Positions 6,129-28,729 of a stretch of DNA of 40,290 nt are shown here, in pieces. The first letter of the stretch is position 1; every line of letters starts with the position of its first letter. Below the pieces are notes generated by a model that was not told the DNA's origin, searched no databases, and was given only the letters and a program-made list of their open reading frames with translations. Origin of the DNA: Marine Group III euryarchaeote CG-Epi1 (GTDB lineage Archaea > Thermoplasmatota > Poseidoniia > MGIII > CG-Epi1); contig MIZA01000003.1 in NCBI GenBank assembly GCA_001875345.1, positions 1 to 40,290 of the forward strand, read 5' to 3'. The position numbers and the translations under genes were made by a program.

Positions 6129-9065
6129 CTAAAGCTTCTTTTTACGGCTAAATGAAATAATCGTGATAATAAGTAACGTACTAACTAGTCCCAATGAAGA
6201 AAGTGGAGAATCTTCCTCCTCTTCAACTACAGTATCATCAATTAGGTCTGATTTTAGAACTGAAAATGGCAAGCTTAGTTTCACTGATTTAGATGAATCG
6301 CTACTCAATGTAACATTGAGTGTACCTGCAGTATCTGAAGCGGCTTGAGTAACTGGTGGGCGAACTTCAATCATTATCTCTTCATAGCTTCCAGGTTCCA
6401 AGTAAATTGTTTCTTTTGGTAAAGTAAACCACGATGATCTCTTTCCTTCCATTACCAATGATAACGTTTCGACAGTATTTCCATTATTTGTAATTAACAC
6501 TTTGAAATCACCTGAAAGTCCAGCAGTAACGTCTCCTGCTGTAGTTTTTAGTTCAACATCAATATCTGCTTTTTCTTCAACATATACTATAAAATCTATT
6601 GAGCTCATTTGACCAGATTGATCAGATGACACCTTAGAAGTGATTGTACTGTTACCTCCAAAAACGTTAGCCGGAACTTTTACATTCAAGTAGACCGTTT
6701 TTGATTCTAATGGTTGTAAAGTAAAAGAAGATTCAGTATAGGTTCCAATCCAACCTGAAGGTAAAGTTGGTGAAGGTAAATTAATGTAATCTACATCATT
6801 GCCCAAATTTTTAACTGTTAATTGGAATGGTATTGTATCGCCTGATGAACCTGTTTTTGTATCTGAAGGTGTTTCAACTGAAAAGATGTATGTTGGATTA
6901 GTCATTATTTTGAAGCTATCGTAATTAGTAAATTTATCATTCAAAGATGAATAACCTACCAAACTTAGTGATATACCATTAACATTAGCTGGCTCATTTG
7001 ACATTGTTGTTATTTCAAGAGTAAAGTCAGAAGTTGCACCTTTTGCCATGTTAAGAGAGTTTAGACAATTACCACTGAATAAAACACAATAAGTCCAACC
7101 AGAAGGTAATCCTTCAATTTCAAAATTAATTTCTTCATCTGCATTTGCATTGTTAGTTATTGTAACTGGTAGAGCGTGTGTATAACCGGGATCACCTATT
7201 GACTCGCTAGGCATAACATCTATGATGAAATCTGCATAGTACTCCACTTTAACTGACAAATCAAGTGTATCTACTTTAATGCCTGATGAAGATAGTTTAA
7301 CATATATTGTAAAATTATAATATCCTGGATTTTCATTTTGAGGGATTTCAAAGGGAAGTACGAAAGCTTCAACTCCTCCGTAGGGGTCTAACTGTTGTGT
7401 TTCAAAAATTAGAGTTTCTTCAAAATTCCAACCATCTGGAACGTTAGATCCTTTGCTAAACTTGTAACTCTCAACGCTGTTACCATTATTAGTGATAGAT
7501 ATGTTAAATTGGTTACTATCTCCGGGATACATTACAGATACTGCTGAGGCTGTAACATATTGATTGTATACTGTATTAACTTTTGAAATTACATCTAGGT
7601 CTGCAAAAGCTGTTGAATCATCATGAGACTCTGCTGTAACTGTAATAGTTGCTTCGTCAGTTGATCTAGCTGAAGAAGGAATCTCAACGAACAACTGAAT
7701 ATCCTCAGAATCTCCGTCATCCAAATCCTCAATGGAGTACTTACTCAAGGAGACTACCCAAGCATTACAAGATTCGCATAGTTCATATCCCAGATTAATG
7801 TCATCAGGATCTGAACCTGAATTTGTAACTGAAACTGTATATGTTAAAATCGAACCCGGGTTTCCACTGAGACTATTTTCAGGTGTAGTCAAAGACACTC
7901 CCCTAACTGGCAATCGGACTGAAGTGTTAACTTCTAAATCATCGTCGAATTGCTCACGATTTTTTGAATAAATATTAATTTTAGTTAGAGACCAGGCATT
8001 CTCCTCTGCATCATCTGGAGAGAAGACACTTAGAACTAAACTGTAGCTTTCATCAGGACCTAAATTATCAATCTCAAATTGACTTAGATTTGATACCCAA
8101 CCTTCTTCACCTTCGTGAGTAAACTCTAAAGCAAATGAATCAGATTCACCACCCTCATTAGTAACGGATAAATCATAAATTACCATACCTCCCGGAATAA
8201 TTTGCTTAGATTCTGCATCTGCTACAATATCAACTTGATAAGTACGCCCATCTTGTGCAGTTGTGTTAGTATTACCAAAACCATAAATGTAATTGTAATC
8301 TTCTTCTTGAACTCGAGCAATTACAGGTATTACTGCATACTCATCGACTGCAGCTGTATTAGGAACTGTAACATCCATCGTAACATCTTGGGAAGTTCCT
8401 GGCTCCAAAAATACTTCTGACACGCTGGAAGATGCTATCCAATCTTTAGGGACATCTCCAATTTCGATAGCGAAATTGTCTGCGTTATCTCCTCGATTTG
8501 TTAAAGAAACAACATAAGAGGCAGATTCTCCTCTTTTAGCTTGAGCCGCATCTCCTTGCTTCAGTTCAACGTCTATTGCATATACCATGTCAATATCTAT
8601 AACTTGATCTATTGAATCACTAACTGATTCGTTCTGAGATGTAACTTCCATAGTGTAGGTCATTTGAGAATTATCATAGACATTTTGGACAGGGGCTTGA
8701 AAACTAAAATTAACGTTCTCTTGAGATTGGGCATCTACTGAAATAGAATCGACTTCAGACTCACCAGACCAGCCAGCTCCGTCATCCTCCCAACTAATCT
8801 CTAAATCATAAGTGTCGTCCATAGTTCCTAAATTAGAAACTAAAAATGTAAAAGTTACAAACTCATTTCTTGTTAGCGAATCGTAACCCGTATTTTCTCC
8901 AGTATAATCTATATCAACTGCATAGCTAGAACGTGAGAAATCAAATACATCATTTGTTGAGAGCTGGGAATCACTGTAAACAAATGAACTGGTTACTCCA
9001 GCAATTGGCATTGCCAAAATTAGGGCAATTAACGAAACAAAAAAAGAATTTACACCTTTCTTCAT
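6129..9065 (-). CDS. Large secreted surface protein with repeated NEW3/CARDB-like Ig domains
   Basis: Cell-surface protein of 978 residues. An N-terminal signal peptide (basic MKKG then a hydrophobic stretch to about residue 28) is followed by seven or eight tandem beta-sandwich modules of about 100-120 residues. Each carries a phrase such as VTNxGxxxD, a WxxxLS or GW motif, and a closing LxPGxSxxVxLxVxVP. This pattern is typical of NEW3/CARDB-type domains found in archaeal envelopes. The C-terminus has an acidic EEEED patch, a hydrophobic segment of about 20 residues and a basic RKKK end, so it is anchored in the membrane with the repeats outside. A GTG nine bases upstream is possible, but a TATA-like box 21-31 bases before the ATG at 9065 favours this start. 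Confidence 0.9.
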   Translation of the reverse strand: MKKGVNSFFVSLIALILAMPIAGVTSSFVYSDSQLSTNDVFDFSRSSYAVDIDYTGENTGYDSLTRNEFVTFTFLVSNLGTMDDTYDLEISWEDDGAGWSGESEVDSISVDAQSQENVNFSFQAPVQNVYDNSQMTYTMEVTSQNESVSDSIDQVIDIDMVYAIDVELKQGDAAQAKRGESASYVVSLTNRGDNADNFAIEIGDVPKDWIASSSVSEVFLEPGTSQDVTMDVTVPNTAAVDEYAVIPVIARVQEEDYNYIYGFGNTNTTAQDGRTYQVDIVADAESKQIIPGGMVIYDLSVTNEGGESDSFALEFTHEGEEGWVSNLSQFEIDNLGPDESYSLVLSVFSPDDAEENAWSLTKINIYSKNREQFDDDLEVNTSVRLPVRGVSLTTPENSLSGNPGSILTYTVSVTNSGSDPDDINLGYELCESCNAWVVSLSKYSIEDLDDGDSEDIQLFVEIPSSARSTDEATITVTAESHDDSTAFADLDVISKVNTVYNQYVTASAVSVMYPGDSNQFNISITNNGNSVESYKFSKGSNVPDGWNFEETLIFETQQLDPYGGVEAFVLPFEIPQNENPGYYNFTIYVKLSSSGIKVDTLDLSVKVEYYADFIIDVMPSESIGDPGYTHALPVTITNNANADEEINFEIEGLPSGWTYCVLFSGNCLNSLNMAKGATSDFTLEITTMSNEPANVNGISLSLVGYSSLNDKFTNYDSFKIMTNPTYIFSVETPSDTKTGSSGDTIPFQLTVKNLGNDVDYINLPSPTLPSGWIGTYTESSFTLQPLESKTVYLNVKVPANVFGGNSTITSKVSSDQSGQMSSIDFIVYVEEKADIDVELKTTAGDVTAGLSGDFKVLITNNGNTVETLSLVMEGKRSSWFTLPKETIYLEPGSYEEIMIEVRPPVTQAASDTAGTLNVTLSSDSSKSVKLSLPFSVLKSDLIDDTVVEEEEDSPLSSLGLVSTLLIITIISFSRKKKL

Positions 9066-9085
9066 AACGTTCACTAAAGTAGAAA

Positions 9086-21847: not shown

Positions 21848-22564
21848 ATGATTAGGGTTGCAGGATTAACAAAATATTACAGTGGTAAACCTGCAGCAAA
21901 AAATATTACCTTTAATGTAGATAAAGGTGAAGTTTTTGGTCTATTAGGAACTAATGGAGCTGGAAAGTCTACAACAATAAAAATGCTTTGTGGGTTGCTC
22001 AAACCAAGCAAAGGGATGGTTACAATTGGAGGTATCGATTTACAACGAACTCCCCTAAAAGCCAAATCAATAATGGGCTACCTTCCGGAAAATCCACTAC
22101 TTTATGATAAATTAACTGGAGCTGAGAGCTTAGAATTAATTGGAAAATTACGTAAATTGTCTTCTGATATGATCAAACAACGCGTGACTTACTATGCTAA
22201 AGCGTTAGGTTTAGGTGAACAGATATACCAAGAAGTTGGAACTTATTCTAAGGGTATGAGACAAAAAATCGCTATTGCAATGACATTAATTCATGATCCT
22301 GAGATGGTTTTATTGGATGAACCTGCTAGTGGGTTAGATCCAAGATATACAAAAATTCTTAAAGATTGGATAAAGAATCTTGCAAGTAATGGAAGAACCG
22401 TACTACTTTCAACACATATTATTGAAATGGCTGAAAATCTATGCACTAAAGTAGCAATTATAGATAAGGGACAACTTCTCGCAGTAGGTACTATTCAAGA
22501 GATACAAGCAAGTACTGGCGTTAACAATTTGGAAGATGCTTTCATTCGTCTTATTGGCGATTAA
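21848..22564 (+). CDS. ABC transporter ATP-binding protein (ABC-2 type exporter class)
   Basis: Nucleotide-binding subunit of a probable ABC-2 exporter. Walker A is GTNGAGKST near residue 36, the signature loop YSKGMRQ near 135 and Walker B MVLLDEPASGLDP near 155, followed by the switch histidine in LLSTHI. Length (238) is that of a stand-alone ATPase without the C-terminal DUF4162-type extension. No permease gene adjoins it: the genes on both sides run in the opposite direction. It may serve a permease encoded elsewhere. Its 3' end overlaps mptE by 14 bases. The inverted repeat in its promoter suggests it is regulated. Confidence 0.92.
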   Translation: MIRVAGLTKYYSGKPAAKNITFNVDKGEVFGLLGTNGAGKSTTIKMLCGLLKPSKGMVTIGGIDLQRTPLKAKSIMGYLPENPLLYDKLTGAESLELIGKLRKLSSDMIKQRVTYYAKALGLGEQIYQEVGTYSKGMRQKIAIAMTLIHDPEMVLLDEPASGLDPRYTKILKDWIKNLASNGRTVLLSTHIIEMAENLCTKVAIIDKGQLLAVGTIQEIQASTGVNNLEDAFIRLIGD

Positions 22565-23201
22565 GAATCTTAACTTTACCCGTTCTTTCGTCGCATTCGT
22601 TTACTATTTTACGAGCCCACGATAATTTTTGAATTTTTCGAGGACTATAATCTCCAGAATAGGGTCCTATTTTATCAAAATTAAAACCTGTTAGATTAAC
22701 TGATTTAGCACCTAGTCCCAATGACATCATAAGGGATCTATCGCCATCAGTAAAGCCTCCCCAACAATTTGTTCCAGAATAAGGATAAGTAGTTGTCAAA
22801 CTAATAGCTTGTATTTCATTAGAAAATTCAAAAAGTCTTGATAAATTATCCCCATGTGCATGAACTACTATCTTTGAACCCTTCTTATTTGCCCATACCA
22901 TTTCAGGCAAATTGCCATCTAAATCAGTAACTATAATATCAGGAATTATATTCCTCTCGAGACAAGCTGAAACTGCACCATCTGCAGCTATCTTAATTCC
23001 ACCAGGAATAGTATCTTTTTCACTTATTCCTGCACCCACTATGGTTACTTTATTATTCAGAATAATCTTTGATAAATTTCCTTTAGGTTGATACAATCTC
23101 GAAATTAAACGTGACGAAACTTCCTCTCGAGATCTGGAAAAACCGAACTCGGTGTTTATTTCCTCTTGTAGAGGCCACCACCAGTCTATAGCAAAAGACA
23201 A
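22551..23201 (-). CDS. mptE: 6-hydroxymethyl-7,8-dihydropterin pyrophosphokinase MptE (DUF115)
   Basis: Activates 6-hydroxymethyl-dihydropterin with ATP in archaeal folate or methanopterin synthesis, as shown for MJ1634. The 216 residues carry the DUF115 signature: IVGAGISEKDTIPGG, then ADGAVSACLERNIIPDIIVTD followed by LDG, and the WGGFTDGDR stretch near residue 165. The start must be TTG at 23201, because an in-frame TAG lies immediately upstream and no early ATG or GTG exists. Since methanogenesis is not expected here, the product is probably tetrahydrofolate or a related pterin. No other pterin gene is nearby. Confidence 0.85.
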   Translation of the reverse strand: MSFAIDWWWPLQEEINTEFGFSRSREEVSSRLISRLYQPKGNLSKIILNNKVTIVGAGISEKDTIPGGIKIAADGAVSACLERNIIPDIIVTDLDGNLPEMVWANKKGSKIVVHAHGDNLSRLFEFSNEIQAISLTTTYPYSGTNCWGGFTDGDRSLMMSLGLGAKSVNLTGFNFDKIGPYSGDYSPRKIQKLSWARKIVNECDERTGKVKILNRQ

Positions 23202-23226: not shown

Positions 23227-26200
23227 CTATAAGGCATTACCATCTTCATCACAAGGAACTTCTTCGCCTGTGTCTGGATCTATGTAGTAGAATGAACCAT
23301 CTTCGTCTTCATAAATTTCAACTTCATATTCATCATCTCCACCAAGATCACCGAAATCTCCGAAGTCAGCGTCAGCCATCGATCCACCAGATGCTGCTGC
23401 GCTCAACATATTCATAATGTTGTTTTCAACAGCTGCTGCATCTCTAGCTTCCTTTGATGATTCTAATGCATCAATCTTACGTTTGGTTGACTCATAAGAT
23501 TCAGTCATTTCTGTTAGCTTCTCAAGTTGCTCATCGCGTTCCATTTTCAGGATGCGTGCGAGATGCTTTTCAATTTTTGATAAGTCATCACGTGCTGCAA
23601 CTAAGCGTGCTAAAGATTCATGGAATCTTTCTGCAACCATCTCTATGTCTGGATCTTCCAAGTCAAGTTGCATTTCCTCTTCTTCCTTTTGGCGTGCTTC
23701 TTCAGCAGCTTCAAGCTCTTTGAGTTTATCCTCTGCAGCTATTTCCTGGGCTTTTACCAGTATGCTATTGAAAGCGCTAATGTGCTCTTCCAATTTTGTC
23801 GCTGCACGAGATGCATCATAAGCGGAGACTTCCATAAGTTCTTCACGCTCTGATAAACTTTCCATGCGGCGCTCTACACTCTCTAGTCTTTGTCGGTCTC
23901 TTTCGTTCATTTCTTCGTCACCTGCTATTACACCTTGTTGCAATTTGAATGCTGTACCTGATAGAATTGCTCCTAAAAGGAAGAATCCAATTAATGCAAC
24001 TAGGTTATAAGTATAAGAACTTCCTTCTAATGTTACCATTTCGTCGCTAACGGAGACTGCTACTGTTTGTGAAGTGCTGCCTCCAGAATTGTCATATGCA
24101 GTAGCTACTACATCAAAATTACCTGATTTGGAATATGTATGAGTTGCAGTAACTGTTTGTCCACTGAAATCTGAGGTTTGGAACGTTTGAGATTCTCCAT
24201 CTCCGAAATCAATAACAAAATGAGTTACTGTTCCATCTGCATCAGTTGGTATTGTGAATGAAAATAATTGTTCTGTACCTTGAACTGGATTATCAAGTGA
24301 AGGTGCCGCTACTGTTGGATTACTATTTTCAATTGTAGTATCAAACACATGCGTTCCAGTCTGCCCATTTGCATCCACATAATCCAAAGTGGTTGTCCAT
24401 GTTCCTGCATTAGCATATGCAGAACCATCCCATGAATCCATATCATAAGTACATGTAGCTCCAGAGTTACTACATTCTCCAAGTCCCCAATTACTCATGT
24501 CTGTACTGAATGTTCTTGCAGTTAAGGAAAATGTGTGTGTAGCTGAACTAAAATCAACATTATCAGAAACTGTAAAAGATTGATCGCCGCTGGATGAAGT
24601 CATGATGCTGAAAGTTACATCCTGAGTTGCCCCTGCAGCTACAGTATATTCCGAGGTTGCAAAGCTAACTGAGTCTGTCATGGAGGTTACAATAAAGGTA
24701 GTGGAAACTCCGGTATTTTGAATTGTAGCAGTTCCTTGACCAATTGTACCTTGATTAAATGTATATGCAGTGCCACCAGTAATTGCTAATGAACGTGTTG
24801 ATGAAGCAACTACTACATCATAAGAATCTGTGGATGCGGCCCCACTAGATGTTGCAGATAGACCTATTGAAGAAGATGCGGCACTAGCTGCATCTGCAGG
24901 AATTCCAACTGTAATATCAACTGTAGCTGAAGATCCAGATGCCAAGGATACGGTGTCATCGGATTTAGCATTAGCCCAAACTCCACTATGCCCAATTGTA
25001 AAAGTATCAAAACCATTGCCAGTATTAGTTACAGTAAAAGATAAAGTTCCAGATTCACCAGGATTTAGTCCTGTTAGTGTTCCTACTGCGACTGTGACTC
25101 CATATACTTGATTTGCAGTGGTTGTAACTGAGGTAGATGAACCATCTCCGTTAATTACAGTAAATGTTACAGATTCTGAAGCACCTGAACCTGCATTAGC
25201 CGGAATTGTTTGAGTAACTGAAATCGTATCTGAAGCTCCCATGGCAAGAGTAGTGCTGCCTCCTGGCGTATCAACATTCCATGAAGAAGTAACAGTGTAA
25301 TCCATCTTCTCTTGTGCATTACCAGTATTTAGAATTGTAAAATGGTAAGTTACGGTGTCGCCTGGATTTCCAGATAAATCGGTGTCGCCAGTTAGGTCGT
25401 GGCCTGTTACTGTATCTACTGTAACTGTACCTGTTTCATCGTTGCTAACTGATGCGTCATTAGTAGCTACAGCACTTACAGTCCATGAATCTTTAGTTCC
25501 TGCTGCTACATGCGGTACGTTTACTGTGATGTCGCAATCAGATGAAGAATCATATGCAACTGTAACTGCAGGGCATGTGACAAACCATCCATTCAAACTG
25601 GATGCTGAAATTGTGAAAGTGTCCTCAAAATTACCATCATTATCTATGGTAAACGTTAAAGTATTTTGACCCGGAGCCAAACTCATGCTTGAGGATGTAC
25701 TCATTGAGAAGGAACTAGTTTTGTTAACTTCAATTGTGGTTCCAAAGTCTGCTGAAACTATTTCTCCGTAGGAATCTGCTGTAACGAAAGTAACGGTTCT
25801 CAAACCTCCTCTTTCATCTATTATTGCTGATTCTGCAACGGTAATTGTATAATTGGAATTTTCATCTAAACCCATAGCTACGGTTGAACCAAATTCAATT
25901 ACTGCGAAAACTGAAATTGAATCTCCGTCATTTAAATTTATATCATCGACGGTGGCATTAATTATGAAATTTGAATCTATCTTTCTGGCTGAACCGTCTG
26001 AAATTACTGGAAGATCATTAATGGTCACGGATGTGGAATCTAAATTTTCAGCCGAAGCTGCAGTGTTAGATGCTGAAAATTGAACTGCCTGAGCATCTGC
26101 TGCCCAAGCCACAGCTGTAGATACTGTGTAGTTAGTACCAACGCCATTTACACATGCATCGTAAGCTCCATTTTCACTTAGGCCAATAGAAGTACCGCCG

Positions 26201-27111
26201 ACATTTACTGATACAGTAGTACCTGCTTGAGCTTCAAATACACAATAGACTACATCAAATACTATTTGATCAGCTTCACCAGCTGAAGTTGAACTTACTG
26301 AGTCATTCACTAACCATGGTGTTTCTGTATCAACTGAGAAAGAAGCGGTTCTGTTATCTTCAGCTGAGTCAAATCCATCTGTACCGCTTACTGTAACTGT
26401 TAAATCTCCACCGAAAGCAGTTTGGAAATCTGCTGAATAAACTGCACCTGTAGTTTCATCTCCAGACTCTTTTGATAAACTGAATGATGCTTCACAACTT
26501 GTTGGATCTGAATCTTCACAAACTGTAGCTGAGAGTACGCCGGCGTGTCCGTCTGCATCTGTGTAAGTTATTGTAACTGTCCTTACAGAGTAAGGCATGT
26601 CATCGCCTGTAACTGCTGCATCATCACTCAATGAGGGAAGTGTGTTAACGTGTATTGCAGGATCTGTAGAAACTGTATCCACTCCACCATTCCAGACGTA
26701 TTCATTACCACTATCCATTGTAGCTTTAAAATTATAAAAAATTACTTCTTCACCTGGTGATGAAACTGTATCGCCTGCTGTTAAAGTAACTGGTGTTTTC
26801 CAAGTTCCATCAAGGTCGTCTCCTGTACCTTCACAGTCTGCAACATCGGTGTCGCATTCTAAATCTACTTCACCAGTCCAAGACCCATCTGGATCTCCAA
26901 AAATTGCCACTATAGAGGTTATACCTTCATCATTATCATTGTTTGCATTAAGAACAACACTAAATGAGATTCCTGCTGAAGGATCTAGCCTTGTTTCGTC
27001 TGAAGGTTCATAGTCTCCGTTATTCAAACTAGCTTCTGAACTGCCTACTAAGAAAAGCGACAATACGGCAAAGGCCAATGCGGACATAAATGCAACACGA
27101 TTATTTATCAT
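23227..27111 (-). CDS. Giant surface protein with Ig/PKD repeats, one membrane helix and a cytoplasmic coiled-coil tail
   Basis: Membrane protein of 1294 residues. A signal peptide (about 1-27, ending GSSEA) leads to some 1000 external residues. These hold several beta domains, at least three NEW3/CARDB-like modules around 470-800 (phrases such as LNPGESGTLSFTVTNTGNG) and a PKD domain near 935-1025 with DFGDGE and HTYSKSGNF. A single helix at about 1036-1056 is followed by an unusually large inside part of about 238 residues. That part is coiled coil to about 1225, then a short acidic Asp/Gly segment and a C-terminal patch DGSFYYIDPDTGEE. The size of the inside part suggests signalling or cytoskeletal attachment rather than simple anchoring. 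GGTG five bases before the ATG could be the ribosome site. Confidence 0.9.
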   Translation of the reverse strand: MINNRVAFMSALAFAVLSLFLVGSSEASLNNGDYEPSDETRLDPSAGISFSVVLNANNDNDEGITSIVAIFGDPDGSWTGEVDLECDTDVADCEGTGDDLDGTWKTPVTLTAGDTVSSPGEEVIFYNFKATMDSGNEYVWNGGVDTVSTDPAIHVNTLPSLSDDAAVTGDDMPYSVRTVTITYTDADGHAGVLSATVCEDSDPTSCEASFSLSKESGDETTGAVYSADFQTAFGGDLTVTVSGTDGFDSAEDNRTASFSVDTETPWLVNDSVSSTSAGEADQIVFDVVYCVFEAQAGTTVSVNVGGTSIGLSENGAYDACVNGVGTNYTVSTAVAWAADAQAVQFSASNTAASAENLDSTSVTINDLPVISDGSARKIDSNFIINATVDDINLNDGDSISVFAVIEFGSTVAMGLDENSNYTITVAESAIIDERGGLRTVTFVTADSYGEIVSADFGTTIEVNKTSSFSMSTSSSMSLAPGQNTLTFTIDNDGNFEDTFTISASSLNGWFVTCPAVTVAYDSSSDCDITVNVPHVAAGTKDSWTVSAVATNDASVSNDETGTVTVDTVTGHDLTGDTDLSGNPGDTVTYHFTILNTGNAQEKMDYTVTSSWNVDTPGGSTTLAMGASDTISVTQTIPANAGSGASESVTFTVINGDGSSTSVTTTANQVYGVTVAVGTLTGLNPGESGTLSFTVTNTGNGFDTFTIGHSGVWANAKSDDTVSLASGSSATVDITVGIPADAASAASSSIGLSATSSGAASTDSYDVVVASSTRSLAITGGTAYTFNQGTIGQGTATIQNTGVSTTFIVTSMTDSVSFATSEYTVAAGATQDVTFSIMTSSSGDQSFTVSDNVDFSSATHTFSLTARTFSTDMSNWGLGECSNSGATCTYDMDSWDGSAYANAGTWTTTLDYVDANGQTGTHVFDTTIENSNPTVAAPSLDNPVQGTEQLFSFTIPTDADGTVTHFVIDFGDGESQTFQTSDFSGQTVTATHTYSKSGNFDVVATAYDNSGGSTSQTVAVSVSDEMVTLEGSSYTYNLVALIGFFLLGAILSGTAFKLQQGVIAGDEEMNERDRQRLESVERRMESLSEREELMEVSAYDASRAATKLEEHISAFNSILVKAQEIAAEDKLKELEAAEEARQKEEEEMQLDLEDPDIEMVAERFHESLARLVAARDDLSKIEKHLARILKMERDEQLEKLTEMTESYESTKRKIDALESSKEARDAAAVENNIMNMLSAAASGGSMADADFGDFGDLGGDDEYEVEIYEDEDGSFYYIDPDTGEEVPCDEDGNAL

Positions 27112-27222: not shown

Positions 27223-27265
27223 TGTAAAAAGAGATAAATATGAGCTTGAATGGATTGTTGTGCTA

Positions 27266-28729
27266 ATGTCTGCAAATTCTAAATTTCAAATAAACACTTC
27301 TGACACTATTAAGTGCATTTCTTCGTCGGAAGGCGGGAGGAAAATAGCTTTTGGAAATAATAGCGGCGATATTTTTTTAGTCGATAATGAAGGACAGACA
27401 ATTTGGGAAAAAAACATCGGCGATGGCACTTATGGAATCGCGATTATGAAAGATGGCAAGAGAGTCATTTGCGGCGGAAAAGACTGCAAGTTAAGAATGT
27501 TTAATTCTTTGGGAAATGTTGAATGGGAAGTTAATGTGGGAAAAGCCATTTGGTCGCTTGCGGTCGACCCAAATGGGCAGGTCGTTGTGATTGGAACTGG
27601 AGATTCAATCTCAATGTTTACAGAAAGTGGAACTAAATTATGGGAATATGATACCAGCAGAGCGATGGTAGGCGTTGGCGTATCAAGAAACGGGGCACAT
27701 GTTGTAGCGTGCGCTGACGAATTTTTGTACTGTCTGGACTCTGAAGGCAATCTATCTTGGAAAAAACAAAGAAGTGATGCACTATGGGATGTCGACATTG
27801 AAAAAGATAACAACTCGATAATAATTGGTGGTTGGGATTGCACAATTTATTCATTAGACTTACATGGAAATGAAATTTGGAATTATGAAACAAAAGGATA
27901 CGTTCGCTCTGTTAGGCCACTTAATGATGGAGGTGTTCTAGCTGGATCTCACGATAACAAAATCTACATATTAAATGATAAAGGTGAAGTAGTAAAAAAT
28001 TTCGAAACGGGCGGAGAGATAACGTGTGTTTGTTCGACTTTAGCATCGGATTATATTTACGCAGGCGCTGGCAACACCATATTGGCATTTGATACAGATG
28101 AAGGAACAATGCCTGCATCTCATGAGGAACCTTCAACACCTAGCAGTAATGTTCCAGAAAAGGAGACTGCAAGAAACGATGATAATGAAGAGTACGAGCC
28201 TATGTTTGGCTTTGGGATGTTTGATGAACCAAGTCCCGACACTACAGAAATTTTAGAGAGAGATGATTACATTAGTAGTGAAACAACAACAGCCACTGAA
28301 GATTATTCCTCGCATTCAGAAAGTTATTCTAATACTTACCAAAGAAATACTCCTTCATATGTAGATAGCAGTGAAAATATAGATCGAGGAGGAGAGTATA
28401 GAGAGTTTGCTGCAAAAGTCTTGAAAGGAGATGTGAAGAACTATCTAAGGCTCGGGAATGCTGCATGGGCTGAAAAGCGACTAGAGCGAGCAGCTGAACA
28501 TTTTAGAAAGGCTACTGAAATCAATCCTGATGAACCAAGAGCTTGGCATAACTTAGCTGTTTGTAATTATCACCTGGCACTGAAGAGAAATCCTGATGAT
28601 GTTGAAGGAGCTGTTGAAAGTGCATTTGGTCCGCTTGAAATTGCAAAAGAAAAAGGCGGTAGCGAATATACTAGCGTTAACAAAACATTGGCCTTTTTGG
28701 CATCGCAAATAGGTATTGAAGAAGATTAA
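27266..28729 (+). CDS. Beta-propeller (PQQ/WD-like) and TPR protein
   Basis: Cytoplasmic protein of 487 residues without a signal peptide. Residues about 5-285 form a seven-bladed propeller; the blades share the pattern G-x-x-x-W-x-x-x (GNVEWEVNVGKAIWSLAVD, GNLSWKKQRSDALWDVDIE, GNEIWNYETKGYVRSV). An acidic, Ser/Thr-rich and probably disordered linker covers about 285-380. The C-terminus has one or two TPR units (AWAEKRLERAAEHFRKATEI, AWHNLAVCNYHLAL). I chose the ATG at 27266 over a GTG six bases earlier. Both parts are protein-binding modules, so a scaffold is likely. It is divergent from the giant surface gene, which has its own cytoplasmic coiled coil; a physical link is inference. It overlaps the next gene by four bases. 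Confidence 0.85.
   Translation: MSANSKFQINTSDTIKCISSSEGGRKIAFGNNSGDIFLVDNEGQTIWEKNIGDGTYGIAIMKDGKRVICGGKDCKLRMFNSLGNVEWEVNVGKAIWSLAVDPNGQVVVIGTGDSISMFTESGTKLWEYDTSRAMVGVGVSRNGAHVVACADEFLYCLDSEGNLSWKKQRSDALWDVDIEKDNNSIIIGGWDCTIYSLDLHGNEIWNYETKGYVRSVRPLNDGGVLAGSHDNKIYILNDKGEVVKNFETGGEITCVCSTLASDYIYAGAGNTILAFDTDEGTMPASHEEPSTPSSNVPEKETARNDDNEEYEPMFGFGMFDEPSPDTTEILERDDYISSETTTATEDYSSHSESYSNTYQRNTPSYVDSSENIDRGGEYREFAAKVLKGDVKNYLRLGNAAWAEKRLERAAEHFRKATEINPDEPRAWHNLAVCNYHLALKRNPDDVEGAVESAFGPLEIAKEKGGSEYTSVNKTLAFLASQIGIEED

Follow-up and report, generated by a model that had tools for sequence, protein, structure and literature searches.

We found that marine group III archaea have a large surface protein with a tail, predicted to be cytoplasmic, that is better conserved than the repeats outside the cell. 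The protein is encoded in a 40,290-nucleotide stretch of DNA from Marine Group III euryarchaeote CG-Epi1 (contig MIZA01000003.1), which we call the window. Compared with the other large genus (G015-G017), the tail is 59-60% identical and the ectodomain only 31-32%. No other part of the protein is as well conserved as the tail, which we detected in 18 of the 21 genomes of the order to which the window genome belongs. An earlier note on this DNA had asked whether the tail is conserved in relatives and whether its terminal patch is conserved more than the repeats; the answer to both is yes, and no other segment of the protein is as conserved as the patch. A tail located outside the membrane would also have spoken against the note, but the predicted topology places it inside.

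Domain layout and topology

The gene occupies exactly positions 23227-27111 on the minus strand, as do all of the features of the protein described below. It starts with ATG and encodes a single-pass surface protein of 1294 amino acids, with orthologues of like length in the order. Hydropathy analysis identified only two hydrophobic stretches. One is a signal peptide (aa 1-28; 27028-27111), hydrophobic from residue 4. The other is a transmembrane helix (about aa 1032-1056; 23944-24018), also modeled as a helix by AlphaFold2. The ectodomain between them (aa 29-1031; 24019-27027) is acidic, evolves fast and is made of Ig/FixG_C-type sandwiches, with a membrane-proximal PKD domain (aa 929-1021; 24049-24327). 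Matches to both kinds of domain exceed the Pfam thresholds (FixG_C, 45.8 bits, cut-off 25.6; PKD_4, 33.1 bits, cut-off 27). By these cut-offs, together with the signal peptide and one transmembrane helix, the protein is a PKD/Ig-repeat surface protein.

There are 238 residues C-terminal to the transmembrane helix. The ectodomain has 132 acidic and 17 basic residues. All six sequons are on its side, as are ten of the eleven cysteines; the tail has a single cysteine. Because the charge pattern and the distribution of sequons and cysteines agree with the hydropathy, the data fit an orientation with the N-terminus outside and the C-terminus inside, which would make the tail cytoplasmic. The giant surface protein with about 238 residues inside the cell that the earlier note described is thus borne out.

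Predicted fold of the tail

In the AlphaFold2 model, the transmembrane helix is followed by two helices of about 85 residues each (aa 1068-1152, 23656-23910; and aa 1156-1240, 23392-23646) with a DPD turn between them, a disordered linker rich in Gly and Asp (aa 1241-1259; 23335-23391; pLDDT <50), and a three-strand meander (aa 1260-1294; 23230-23334, the last 35 codons). Mean pLDDT is 77 and pTM is 0.24, and the model does not settle helix packing or oligomer state. The hydrophobic periodicity of both helices peaks at 3.5, as for a coiled coil. The tail had been described as a long coiled coil, a Gly/Asp-rich linker and a conserved-looking acidic aromatic patch. The linker and the patch (DGSFYYIDPDTGEE) are there, and the helical character and periodicity of the coil hold, but there are two helices joined by a turn and not one rod. 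The patch lies in the terminal mini-sheet, which also contains an invariant cysteine, Cys1287.

We did not find a known family for this mini-sheet. It is like a WW domain in having ~30 residues, a three-strand meander, an aromatic core and sequence resemblance over 18 residues. However, the match to the WW profile (PF00397) is 16.6 bits (E 0.008) against a cut-off of 26.9, the fold match is not significant, and the marine group III patch contains no Trp and so lacks the signature Trp pair, ~20 residues apart. A match to PepSY (18.8 bits, cut-off 24) covers only half of that profile and was also rejected. With neither model did Foldseek return a match below E 0.001; the non-significant matches included WW domains and propeller blades. 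The gene next to that of the surface protein encodes a propeller, and we regard the propeller blades as a lead only. Sequence searches of the PDB gave matches at the level of chance, no NCBIfam family covers the tail, and literature searches found nothing on the surface protein or its tail.

Conservation of the tail

Genomes with the tail that are labeled marine group III include CG-Bathy1, AH-321-L02 and AG-343-N02. In two of the three genomes in which it was not detected (G011 and G020), the gene meets a contig end before the tail, and the third (G007) has no such locus. Full-length tails were found only in marine group III: there were none elsewhere in the class, nor among 390 genomes sampled from the phylum. 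A search with the tail as a single query gave no match beyond marine group III, and the terminal motif was reached there only by profiles.

As yardsticks, we used proteins encoded on the same contigs. Identity was 54-56% for SBDS, 62-65% for RRP4 and 40-41% for the neighboring propeller protein. Within the tail, identity between genera is 57-61% for the helices, 35-40% for the linker and 90-94% for the last 31 residues, compared to ~32% for the ectodomain. In one genome (G008), all 31 residues of the patch are kept and yet 18 of the 31 third codon positions have changed. The identity of the patch is therefore not due to recently shared DNA, and its protein sequence is under purifying selection. 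This selection, and conservation of the tail in 18 of 21 genomes, indicate that the observation exceeds chance. An apparent duplication of the tail in G001 adjoins runs of unresolved bases, and we took it to be an assembly artefact.

A form of the protein without the ectodomain

CG-Bathy1 (G014) has the tail but not the ectodomain. Its gene (L057:11804-12604) encodes 266 amino acids consisting of a short N-terminus, the transmembrane helix and the tail, and is at the equivalent locus, between genes for an MptE-like protein and the propeller-TPR protein. We found no separate gene for the ectodomain in this genome, which is only 79% complete. CG-Bathy1 is 52-53% identical to each of the two other genera, and these are 57-59% identical to each other. 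Since CG-Bathy1 is about equidistant from both, gain of the ectodomain in the others and its loss in CG-Bathy1 are both possible. That CG-Bathy1 keeps the transmembrane helix and tail with no ectodomain indicates that the tail has a function for which no external ligand is required.

Homologues of helix 2 elsewhere in the phylum

A profile of the marine group III tail matched (E 3e-13) a 232-amino-acid protein in a genome from another family of Thermoplasmatota (G252). This protein contains, in order, a zinc ribbon, a helix, an acidic linker and a second zinc ribbon. Its helix aligns with helix 2 over 88 residues with 32% identity and no internal gaps. The gene is directly behind one for a giant CARDB/PKD protein with a transmembrane helix (at least 1585 amino acids; L078:3-4760). 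We read the pair as a split form of the single marine group III protein, and the two G252 proteins may interact. The giant CARDB/PKD protein has a short cytoplasmic tail of its own that ends in a zinc ribbon (CSECDASNDIDAEYCDKCGG).

With the G252 protein added, the profile also matched soluble proteins with a coil and zinc ribbons in G259, G267 and G248 (E 5e-11 to 1e-9); these are weaker evidence because coils resemble each other. Weak matches in G331, G444, G288 and G328 were to proteins of other kinds. The marine group III tail is not itself of the phylum's zinc-ribbon type: it has no CxxC pairs and only one cysteine.

The terminal mini-sheet in related archaea

A profile of the marine group III patch gave weak matches (E 6e-5 to 1) in two other families of the class (f2 and f3), which are presumably marine group II. 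The matches are mostly in proteins of ~3050, 1430 and 250 amino acids. Inspection places the motif at the extreme C-terminus, and in the large proteins it follows a transmembrane helix and an acidic linker. With a joint profile, we found between 4 and 7 copies per genome in four f2 genomes, 6 in one f3 genome (G032), and no match in the f3 genomes G024 and G029. Five marine group III genomes had exactly one copy each, the tail gene. In all f2 and f3 copies scoring >19, at most two residues separate the motif from the stop codon.

With a profile built from nine f2 and f3 copies, the top 18 of 1523 reading frames were the tail genes of marine group III, a ranking that is partly circular in that the copies had been chosen for their resemblance to the patch of these genes. 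The patch scored 26.6 bits against this profile, compared to at most 10.3 for 5000 shuffled sequences, so composition alone does not explain the match. An f2/f3 copy modeled alone by AlphaFold2 also formed a meander (pLDDT 92-94). It is likely that the mini-sheets share a common descent, although a short acidic and aromatic motif can converge. Neither the helical tail nor a close orthologue of the propeller-TPR protein was found in the f2 and f3 archaea that have the terminal motif.

We made two further observations in f2 genomes. A soluble protein of ~250 amino acids (MARKRGG...SRFVGAL; L055:4338-5105, L056:3245-4195, L054:2734-3486) ends in the same motif; it has no transmembrane helix and only a sub-threshold Pfam match (FIMAH). 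In addition, tandem genes for giant surface proteins (~3018 and 810-890 amino acids; L122:2-11541, L123:2048-13740) adjoin a replication-factor-C-like gene, and the second protein ends in a further W/Y motif (GWYVDSTGQLTSWLVSETGEWTRVS in L123). The discussion of adhesion in a phylogenomic study of marine group II deals with archaella, thrombospondin and flotillin genes and names no such tailed protein (PMC6461757).

Gene neighborhood

A divergent gene on the plus strand (27260-28729, start probably the ATG at 27266) encodes a protein with a beta-propeller and TPRs, as determined by Pfam and alignment. In every genome whose contig extends so far, this gene for a protein of scaffold type adjoins the tail gene. 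Synteny spans the whole block of at least ten genes, and adjacency of the propeller gene is therefore weak evidence for a partnership. The propeller-TPR protein has a conserved motif (FGFGMFDEPxPDT) in the otherwise unconserved sequence that links the propeller to the TPRs, possibly a binding motif. On the other side, 25 bp downstream of the surface protein gene, is an MptE-like gene (Pfam; 22551-23201, minus strand) that is conserved in position and is probably co-transcribed with it. An ABC transporter ATPase (21848-22564, plus strand) is also kept in the block, with no recognizable permease among the adjacent genes examined. The window encodes another large repeat protein, of 981 amino acids with NPCBM-associated/Ig-type repeats (6129-9074, minus strand).

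Possible functions of the tail

On balance, we think it probable that the cytoplasmic module and not the ectodomain is the conserved working part of the protein, and that partners from the cytosol dock to it at the inner face of the membrane. The transmembrane helix would keep the module there, and the two long helices could dimerize, or pair with a helix of a partner, and serve as a spacer or scaffold. Beyond them, the acidic linker, being flexible, would hold out the ~30-residue mini-sheet for recognition by a cytosolic factor. The best candidate for this factor is the propeller-TPR protein encoded by the divergent gene. A variable outer coat would in this way be coupled to a constant internal platform. 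Two results count against this reading: the f2 and f3 archaea have the motif but neither the helical tail nor a close propeller-TPR orthologue, and the pTM of the tail model is low.

It is possible, but unlikely, that the protein is simply a structural, S-layer-like coat, with a helical tail that only oligomerizes and anchors the stalk, a mini-sheet that is a cap for folding or stability, and no signaling or scaffold partner. The Ig/PKD repeats, acidic ectodomain, single transmembrane helix and helices with a periodicity of 3.5 are all consistent with such a coat. However, an anchor does not need 31 near-invariant residues at its far end, and CG-Bathy1 retains the tail without the coat part. 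The CG-Bathy1 form, which has no sensor part, also argues against a transmembrane receptor, in which binding of a ligand or particle by the ectodomain would be relayed through the helices to the terminal patch and on to an effector in the cytosol. Although the order of the parts (outside, membrane, helices, terminal module), the fast ectodomain and slow tail, and the adjoining TPR/propeller protein would all suit a receptor, Pfam and NCBIfam identified no kinase, HAMP, methyl-accepting or other signaling domain in the protein, and Pfam no known ligand-binding domain. We consider a receptor quite unlikely.

The position of the motif, 0-2 residues before the stop codon in several different giant proteins per related genome, might instead indicate a sorting or export tag that is read by a shared trafficking or quality-control factor and has no connection with what the helices do. 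This is quite unlikely, given that the soluble f2 protein also carries the motif, that two genomes of the class have no match, and that marine group III genomes have one carrier each. Docking of cytosolic partners by the tail is the interpretation that we prefer. The earlier note had compared the layout to adhesion receptors or envelope-to-cytoskeleton linkers. An envelope-to-cytoplasm linker suits the data best; neither an outside ligand nor a cytoskeletal partner was found for the protein, and no examined neighbor is a recognizable cytoskeletal gene.

The tail is conserved about as well as core cell machinery, and the terminal fold also caps giant proteins of relatives, which suggests a common docking point at the inner membrane. 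Tentatively, marine groups II and III may share an unnamed C-terminal mini-domain, at the cytoplasmic end of their giant surface proteins, through which these dock to one and the same internal platform. In the marine group III protein, the mini-domain would be joined to a helical scaffold; elsewhere in the phylum, the homologue of this scaffold is a zinc-ribbon protein in its own right, encoded beside a giant surface protein.

Comparison with known proteins

To our knowledge, little is known about how archaea attach their coat to the inside of the cell, and this holds particularly for the uncultured marine groups II and III. The results here offer a concrete conserved cytoplasmic module, a searchable motif of ~30 residues and one candidate partner gene. 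They also reverse the usual emphasis: in this surface protein the repeats are replaceable and the inside tail is constant.

The G252 pair resembles the marine group III protein in two respects: one member is a giant surface protein with a transmembrane helix, and in the other a helix 2 homologue precedes an acidic linker and a small C-terminal domain. It differs in that the parts are divided between two adjacent genes, zinc ribbons replace the mini-sheet and helix 1 is absent. The giant f2 and f3 proteins share the giant ectodomain, single transmembrane helix, acidic linker and terminal acidic/aromatic mini-sheet. In contrast to the marine group III protein, they have no helical tail, their motif is Trp-rich and ends at the stop codon, and there are several per genome; the marine group III protein has ~11 extra residues after the motif, including Cys1287. 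The closest known kind is the PKD/CARDB/Ig-repeat surface protein of archaea (Pfam PKD_4, FixG_C), with a signal peptide, beta-sandwich repeats, a PKD domain near the membrane and one transmembrane helix. Here, however, a conserved cytoplasmic module of 238 residues replaces the short anchor, and this tail is more conserved than the repeats and exists without them in CG-Bathy1.
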